Assembly (NCBI GenBank): GCA_963169225.1 | Contig: CAUJDH010000028.1 | Coordinates: 1 to 34,216, forward strand | From: Actinomycetota bacterium | GTDB taxonomy: Bacteria; Actinomycetota; Actinomycetes; S36-B12; UBA10799 | DNA length: 34,216 bases | Reading direction: 5' to 3' | Shown here: piece by piece, positions 25,837 to 27,463 of the stretch | Layout of the letters: every line of letters begins with the position of its first letter | Position numbering within the stretch: the first letter of the stretch is position 1 | Notes under the pieces: generated by a model | What the model was told of the DNA's origin: nothing | The model's database searches: none | The model's input: only the letters and a program-made list of their open reading frames with translations | Program-made: the position numbers and the translations under genes

Positions 25837-27090
25837 TCAGTTTCCGAGAGTAGTGAGCGAAATGACGCCAATGCCATCAGGACGCATGTAGCTGGGGCCA
25901 GTCGGAACTATGACGGCAAGTAATGAGTATGGCTTGCCTCGTTGATCCAGCGCTTGGTCAAATTTCTTGAGGTTAGCGGCAGCATCATCAATTAGTCCCG
26001 GTCCTAGTTTAATTTCGAAAGCAGCCCAAGCCCCATCAGGCCGCTCGACAATGGCGTCTACTTCTAGACCATTTTTTGCTCGAAAATGAAAGACCTCCGC
26101 ATCCATTAGGTCGGCAAAGGCTCGCAGCTGTTGAACTGCGAGTGACTCGAAAAGAAGCCCTAGTGTTTCAGGGTCTCCCAGGAGCTGTTGTGGGGATCGG
26201 ATCCCAAGAGCAGCGGCAACTAATGAGGTGTCGACTAGATGCCGTTTTGGTGCTTCTCGTAGCGGGGTTCGTGAACGTAGCTTTGGGCTCCATGCCTTTT
26301 GAATTTCTAGAATGTAAACGCGTTCCAATGAGTTTAGATACGAGTCGACAGTAGTTCTATGAAGTGGTCCACTTGATCCACCTGCATCGGCGGCTAAGGT
26401 CGAGATGGAAGCTTCGGTTGCTGTGTTGCGCGCTAGAGAGGTAAGTAGCGACAACACTTTAGTGGGGTTGTGGTGTGAGCCATCAAAACCAGCGATATCA
26501 AGTCGAGCAATTTGCTTCAGATATTCTTTCGCGTATTGTCCGGCGTTTTCGGTTGAAAGGTTGTGGCTCATCGGCCATCCACCAATGATCATCCGTTCCA
26601 CGATATCGGTCAGATTTGGAGAGGAATCCACGCTTCGTGGTGGGGTCCCATCAAGCACATCTTTCAGAGAAACCTCACCGGAGGAATGTTGAGTTTCTTG
26701 CAATGTAAGTGGGTGCATACGAAGCCGTGCGAATCGTCCAGTGCCGGTATGGCGAGTGATGTCGTCAGAAGGAGAAGCTGAACCGGTAAGGATGAACTGA
26801 CCTTTTTGCTGACGTGAGTCAACAACGTGTCGCACTTGGTTCCACAATGAGGGAACGGTTTGCCATTCATCGAGGAGCCGTGGTGTTGGTCCTTCTAACA
26901 CTAACTGTGGATCGGCCAGTGCGAGTTGACGTTGTGTTTGATCAGTTTCGAGGTAGACGGCACTCGAGGCCAGCTGCTTTCCTGTTTCTGTTTTTCCGAC
27001 TGCTTTAGGGCCGTCGATCACTACAGCTCCTACCCATTGGAGTCGGTCCTGGAGAGTCGTGTCCAATAACCGAGGAATGTAGCTACTCAT
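25837..27090 (-). CDS. AAA-type ATPase with DUF4143 C-terminal domain
   Basis: Walker A GPKAVGKTETGKQ, Walker B-like PRLLDEWQ, LTGSASPSDD sensor, C-terminal VDAIVERPDGAWAAFEIKLG nuclease-like fold. Confidence 0.92.
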   Translation of the reverse strand: MSSYIPRLLDTTLQDRLQWVGAVVIDGPKAVGKTETGKQLASSAVYLETDQTQRQLALADPQLVLEGPTPRLLDEWQTVPSLWNQVRHVVDSRQQKGQFILTGSASPSDDITRHTGTGRFARLRMHPLTLQETQHSSGEVSLKDVLDGTPPRSVDSSPNLTDIVERMIIGGWPMSHNLSTENAGQYAKEYLKQIARLDIAGFDGSHHNPTKVLSLLTSLARNTATEASISTLAADAGGSSGPLHRTTVDSYLNSLERVYILEIQKAWSPKLRSRTPLREAPKRHLVDTSLVAAALGIRSPQQLLGDPETLGLLFESLAVQQLRAFADLMDAEVFHFRAKNGLEVDAIVERPDGAWAAFEIKLGPGLIDDAAANLKKFDQALDQRGKPYSLLAVIVPTGPSYMRPDGIGVISLTTLGN

Positions 27091-27110
27091 GGAGGTAATC
27101 TAACTCAAAT

Positions 27111-27202
27111 TATGCAATTTGGCTAGATTAAATTATGCAATTTAGTGTCTAAAGATTATGCAATTTGGCTTATTTTAACTATGCAATTCGGCGTAATTTT
27201 GC
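27111..27202. repeat. Four direct repeats TATGCAATT(T/C) with exact 23-bp period
   Basis: TATGCAATT at 27111, 27134, 27157 and 27180, each followed by divergent AT-rich spacer; repeats end at ~27202. Confidence 0.95.
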
Positions 27203-27408
27203 AAGCTTCGTCCTAGAGCCTCCGCAAACTTCCCTCTAGGCCCATGTTCCGGCTGATGGTTGCCTGGTCTGGTTCAGTGTTGACTGCTCAAGACGGAACT
27301 GACGCGAGTTTCTGACGCCTGGCTAATAGCCAACAGCCACAGGAGCTCTTTTCAAATCCGACCTTGTCAGCTAATAACCAGTGAGTTATTCTGGTAGAAC
27401 GCTATTAA

Positions 27409-27457
27409 GACCTTCTGCCCCGGACCGACCGGGGCCATTAGTCCAGAGGAGGTGGTC
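27409..27457 (+). promoter_or_regulatory. rpsF 5' UTR hairpin; candidate S6:S18 autoregulatory leader
   Basis: CCCCGG-ACCGA-CCGGGG hairpin (27418-27434) nested in TCTG/CAGA and GACC/GGTC pairings, with GAGGAGG SD in the 3' side; CCG in loop. Confidence 0.5.
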
Positions 27458-27463
27458 TGATTT

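Follow-up and report, generated by a model that had tools for sequence, protein, structure and literature searches.

What do four exact repeats, set at a fixed step of 23 bp directly before an ATPase gene, mean for that gene? The question is raised by a stretch of 34,216 nucleotides (here called the window) which comprises positions 1 to 34,216 of contig CAUJDH010000028.1 in the assembly GCA_963169225.1 of an Actinomycetota bacterium. The gene on its minus strand encodes a DUF4143 ATPase, and the repeats form an array at its 5' end. The array is probably the operator of the downstream gene, bound by the gene's own product, which would repress itself.

25837..27090, minus strand: ATPase-nuclease gene, 417 amino acids, AAA_14 and DUF4143, PDC-S01 in PADLOC
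27097..27192, minus strand: array of period 23 bp, four 23-bp units with flank, core AAATTGCATAAT on the gene strand

The repeat array in the window

TATGCAATT starts at 27111, 27134, 27157 and 27180, in steps of exactly 23 bp, and no further exact copy is present in the window. Tandem Repeats Finder placed 4.0 copies of period 23 at 27100-27192, and a separate repeat search gave four copies with spacings of 23, 23 and 23. Read along the gene strand, the four units are AATTGCATAGTTAAAATAAGCCA, AATTGCATAATCTTTAGACACTA, AATTGCATAATTTAATCTAGCCA and AATTGCATAATTTGAGTTAGATT, followed by ACCTCC and then by the ATG at 27090, with the onset of the array 20 bp ahead of it. Chance repeats were rejected, since none of 1000 shuffles of 27091-27463 gave four identical 9-mers at one spacing. 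A sequence-only reading of this DNA had described four exact copies in 23-bp steps at 20 bp from the start codon, and the coordinates, Tandem Repeats Finder and the shuffles agree with it. The same reading had placed the bound protein on one face of the DNA, which does not hold: 23 bp corresponds to about 2.2 turns of B-DNA, so that successive sites are rotated by about 70 degrees and do not lie on one face.

A genome-wide motif was also rejected by whole-genome pattern counts for the 9-mer and for the spaced pair. TATGCAATT occurs seven times in the genome, four of them in the array, and a spaced TATGCAATT pair without mismatch was found in the array only; the whole-genome pattern search found no second array elsewhere in the same genome. 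This is in line with the earlier claim that the array is specific to this gene, as the same repeats are not spread over the genome and homologues of the gene do carry arrays. Iterons of a plasmid or origin were rejected as well. Such an array is tied to a replicon origin, and the present one lies at a chromosomal site between nfo and rpsF with no second array in the genome, which holds one DUF4143 gene.

The fixed period in homologues and the promoter

Upstream regions of homologues were scanned for self-match over a range of lags. The loci are related to one another, many come from metagenome bins, and the sample is dominated by Actinomycetota. In the window and the first 13 homologues, taken from several phyla, the best lag was 23 or 46 (2 x 23) in 14 of 14. 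Over 168 homologues it was 23 in 112 and 46 in 13 (together 125), followed by 22 in 11 and 24 in 5, while the best lags of shuffled upstream regions were widely spread, with at most 9 at any single lag. A lag-23 score of at least 22/40 was reached by 74% of the DUF4143 genes and by 0/300 upstream regions of other open reading frames in the same loci. A further set of 61 loci gave a best lag of 23 or 46 in 48. This set contains 11 annotated plasmid homologues; nine of them had a best lag of 23 and one more had 46 just ahead of 23. These ten come from Collinsella (two), Bacteroides ovatus, B. uniformis, Prosthecochloris, Actinomyces, Lentilactobacillus, Spartinivicinus, M. riyadhense and Azotobacter. 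The typical array of a homologue has about three units and ends at a median of 19 bp ahead of the start codon. In the protein tree, the side holding the window protein is almost uniformly of period 23.

Across the sampled bacterial phyla, it is the period that is conserved and not the repeat sequence. The sequence-only reading had expected AAATTGCATA-type repeats of this period upstream of homologues; the period was indeed kept, but no conserved AAATTGCATA-type motif was found there. Its wider claim, that several protein-binding sites form an element linked to the DUF4143 gene, is favoured by the homologues, whose 23-bp arrays occupy the corresponding position.

Other arrangements were also observed. 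A pitch of 24 bp was seen in L027, L113, L114 and L144 and a pitch of 22 bp in L158, L161, L019, L116, L029 and L023, on scattered branches of the tree. Members of PDC-S01 which have no 23-bp array often possess a strong inverted repeat that precedes the start codon (L020, L030, L044, L166, L170, L177), which suggests a dimer-type operator in these members. L030, L044, L166, L170 and L177 are examples from a single large clade of the tree that is devoid of direct arrays.

The array also coincides with promoter-like sequence. Its last unit in the window ends in TAGATT; no Shine-Dalgarno motif was seen before the window gene, and a sigma-70 consensus scan of the gene strand gave no match.

27097..27102, minus strand: TAGATT, candidate -10 of a leaderless promoter, starting 12 bp and ending 6 bp ahead of the ATG

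Of 117 array-bearing loci, mostly of Actinomycetota, 42 have TANNNT at precisely -12, compared with a mean of 1.8 per position. A -10 element at -14 to -11 was found in 56 of the 117, none of which has a Shine-Dalgarno motif. This is the signature of leaderless genes, and the transcripts of these loci should therefore begin at the start codon. Of 57 loci of leaderless type, 54 have the -35 position under the array and 42 have an array that reaches the -10. In Bacteroidota, TAnnTTTG, the -7 promoter consensus of this phylum, was found near the start codon in nine of ten loci, on the downstream side of the array in those loci with computed array ends. Read as sequence matches and not as mapped starts, these elements place the arrays over the predicted core promoter of their own gene, which is often leaderless.

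Covariation of the recognition helix with the repeat

The protein of the window scored 53.3 bits with AAA_14 (cut-off 27), 113.4 bits with DUF4143 (cut-off 28.1) and 237.8 bits with the PADLOC model PDLC04790, and the PDC-S01 model matches in all 16 aligned family members. Sequence search of the Protein Data Bank and search of NCBIfam gave no match with this protein. Its AlphaFold2 model has a mean predicted local distance difference test score (pLDDT) of 91.9, and a winged helix is predicted between the ATPase and the PD-(D/E)XK nuclease domains. Structure comparison gave STAND/AAA+ ATPases with winged helices among its matches, at low TM-scores of about 0.24-0.50.

26686..27090, minus strand: P-loop ATPase domain (G27..GKT, D74-E75-W-Q, T102-G-S), from near-invariant motifs and the AlphaFold2 model
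26236..26466, minus strand: predicted winged helix, residues 209-285 (AlphaFold2 helices 209-221, 229-240 and 245-257; strands 261-266 and 282-285)
26320..26358, minus strand: recognition helix, residues 245-257, with Arg245 the residue covarying most strongly with the repeat
26008..26148, minus strand: PD-(D/E)XK nuclease-like core (E315, E343, D345, E359-x-K361), from residue conservation

Walker A and Walker B are near-invariant in homologues (n=167), and their residues, like those of the PD-(D/E)XK core, are intact in the window protein. The nuclease residues E343, D345, E359 and K361 are present in 98-99% of the 167 homologues and E315 in 92%.

To compare proteins with repeats, the units of each array were expressed as a profile of 23 columns, and the profiles were matched over all rotations. 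Repeat similarity was 0.26, the baseline, below 30% protein identity and rose to 0.74 above 80%. All 10-residue windows along the protein were then tried as predictors of repeat similarity after removal of overall identity. In two disjoint sets of pairs, the best window started at residue 243 (pairs below 42% identity) and at residue 244 (pairs of 42-90%), and its maximum was reached by 0/1000 label permutations (p(max)<0.001). Together these windows single out residues 242-253 as the best predictor beyond overall identity. The first window scan, made before the AlphaFold2 model was collected, had already indicated residues 233-258. In the model, the residues of the best window form the N-terminus of the recognition helix of the winged helix, which begins at 245.

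The repeats of 124 loci were also put in register, with no protein data used beyond sequence weights. All 12 runs of the register search converged on one optimum of 4.08 bits, with the weak consensus CTGCAAAnTGTAGnGT; column-shuffled repeats gave about 2.5 bits. When pairs of residue and repeat position were ranked, residue 245 with position 17 came first and residue 245 with position 16 second; the score of the first pair was reached by 0/200 full shuffles and by 0/200 shuffles within clusters of 50% identity. Over all 167 loci, G at position 17 accompanies Arg or Lys at 245 in 80/96 and other residues in 14/71 (p=5e-17), and the same table for representatives below 45% identity gave 10/13 and 0/16 (p=1e-5). 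Glu or Asp at 245 shows a tendency to C. Both the pairing of Arg/Lys with G and that of Glu/Asp with C are expected from known contacts between side chains and bases. T at position 16 separates the two basic residues, being present in 33/53 loci with R245 and in 0/43 with K245. The window protein itself has R245 and TG at positions 16-17. L130, 61% identical to it, has H245, and its repeat reads AAATCTTCAAAT where the window has AAATTGCATAAT. Paralogues within one genome had a mean repeat similarity of 0.31 against a baseline of 0.26-0.29, and such differing repeats would fit insulation between the copies. The ATPase had been proposed as the likely binder from the window sequence, and the covariation of the array with its recognition helix speaks for that proposal; we infer, with good computational support, that the ATPase binds its own array.

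Mechanism, rival explanations and known systems

In the mechanism proposed, the winged helix of each protomer would bind one 23-bp unit, residues 242-246 of the recognition helix would choose the base steps, and Arg/Lys245 would read the G at position 17. The protomers would sit head to tail on successive units in an arrangement that is helical along the DNA and not on one face, and contacts between them would fix the 23-bp pitch. As the pitch would be set by protein contacts, the period would be kept while the letters drift with a fast-changing helix. Binding should repress transcription because the array lies over the -35 and -10, a direction of control which is thus suggested by the position of the array. 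The ATP state or an infection signal may relieve the repression; release on infection and action of the nuclease are speculative parts of the mechanism.

Several observations weigh against such a self-bound operator or limit the support for it. No 23-bp array was found in the lag scan for the homologue on Thermus thermophilus pTT27, one large PDC-S01 clade has no direct array, and some other homologues also lack one of 23 bp. In the closest pairs of an earlier run (157 pairs of 60-97% identity) the best windows lay elsewhere, so that pairs of moderate and distant kinship are the source of the helix signal. The association of R/K with G17 had the same direction in held-out loci, with p=0.03-0.09 in the joint register; the first register gave p=0.24 for held-out loci of less than 80% identity. 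The register is often ambiguous for degenerate repeats, and kinship among loci inflates the pair counts. As to the direction of control, L013 has a promoter-like box upstream of its array, and the arrays of L012 and L077 end well upstream of the promoter box.

An array serving mainly as an assembly or recognition site for a defence or selfish function (nucleation platform, titration decoy or nuclease self-marker), with regulation secondary, is an unlikely alternative, yet the best placed of the rivals. It would be modelled on DnaA or Orc1/Cdc6 assembling on origin boxes and draws on the fixed pitch and several copies, on the conserved nuclease motif and on the winged-helix-bearing Orc1/Cdc6 and archaeal STAND ATPases among the structural matches. 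Against it stand the overlap with the promoter in most loci, the lack of a second array in the gene's own genome and the chromosomal place of the gene between nfo and rpsF. We consider it still less probable that a separate regulator of the host or of a neighbouring gene binds the array and that the ATPase merely rides along. A small helix-turn-helix gene does lie directly upstream of the DUF4143 gene on two Collinsella aerofaciens plasmids (L178, L179), but no common neighbour was present in the other annotated loci or in the window. Moreover, the site of a host regulator would change neither with the helix of the ATPase nor between paralogues, whose repeats are hardly more alike than the baseline.

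Drifting recent tandem duplications with no role in binding are very improbable. Some arrays do consist of nearly perfect copies (L007, L048, L135), but a single period recurs in unrelated sequences of several phyla, is absent from the 300 control upstream regions and goes with covariation to a single helix; the sequence-only reading had likewise judged against recent duplication. A role of the repeats in RNA, as a leader, has an equally slight chance: they lie close to the start codon and the box of L013 stands upstream of its array, but transcripts of the 56 leaderless-type loci are expected to start at the start codon, and the TAnnTTTG box of Bacteroidota lies downstream of the array wherever array ends were computed.

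Autoregulation over direct repeats at the own promoter is already known from RptR, a self-regulating repressor of defence islands (PMC12255303). RptR is a separate small homodimeric repressor with 9-bp repeats and a conserved site, TAGCTA (PMC12255303), whereas the candidate binder here is the effector itself, its units recur at a pitch of 23 bp, and no site sequence is conserved among them across the family. What appears new is a family-wide fixed pitch with a co-diverging address in an ATPase-nuclease. Orc1/Cdc6 (2qby) and the Pyrococcus STAND ATPase paby2304 (2qen), among the better structural matches, share with the DUF4143 protein an ATPase and a winged helix. Orc1/Cdc6 binds origin DNA, but no replication role is indicated for the DUF4143 protein, and the similarity stays within the low TM-scores given above. 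Compared by description only, BrickBuilt of Porphyromonas gingivalis, unexplained 23-nt intergenic tandem repeats that are part of a miniature inverted-repeat transposable element (MITE), shares the period and the intergenic tandem array, with no ATPase mentioned (PMC4596501). No published account of the present array was found in literature outside subscription papers, and in the open literature DUF4143 was named only in a text on Argonaute in Thermus.

PDC-S01 is described as the fourth most common defence across prokaryotes, combining ATPase and PD-(D/E)XK domains (PMC12988326); in PADLOC it is a candidate for phage defence. Neither a cis array nor a DNA-binding specificity or mechanism is described in the papers found on it. 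Among candidate defence genes of prokaryotes the family is one of the most widespread, and no mechanism is known for it. With a private operator of fixed pitch, each of its thousands of members would come with a DNA ligand of its own, a contact residue already predicted and a geometry of assembly, and the family would offer a natural series for the drift of a protein-DNA recognition code under fixed spacing. Tentatively, PDC-S01 proteins may be self-addressed DNA-binding ATPase-nucleases, in which a private promoter address of fixed 23-bp pitch, diverging together with the helix, insulates paralogues and incoming copies, and the nuclease is kept inactive by head-to-tail assembly on the array until it is set free by infection or by loss of that array; we regard this wider picture as possible and rather doubtful.

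Two same-family genomes gave no match with the ATPase, and in both nfo and rpsF nonetheless adjoin, 244-252 bp apart. The two 1-kb bins which hold the gene and array have a GC content of 51% and 49%, and the rest of the window 53-60%. Because of this absence at the nfo-rpsF site, and also of the lower local GC, the gene and its array are probably a single-gene insertion in this genome. The selfish or defence-like unit proposed in the sequence-only reading is made plausible by the PDC-S01 match in PADLOC together with the nfo-rpsF site of the two same-family genomes, which lacks the gene. A tRNA search found none. Homologues of PDC-S01 also occur on contigs labelled phage or viral (L236-L239 from human faeces, and L075-L077). 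On an Actinomyces oris plasmid (L183), the DUF4143 gene adjoins the cas3 of a type I-U CRISPR system.
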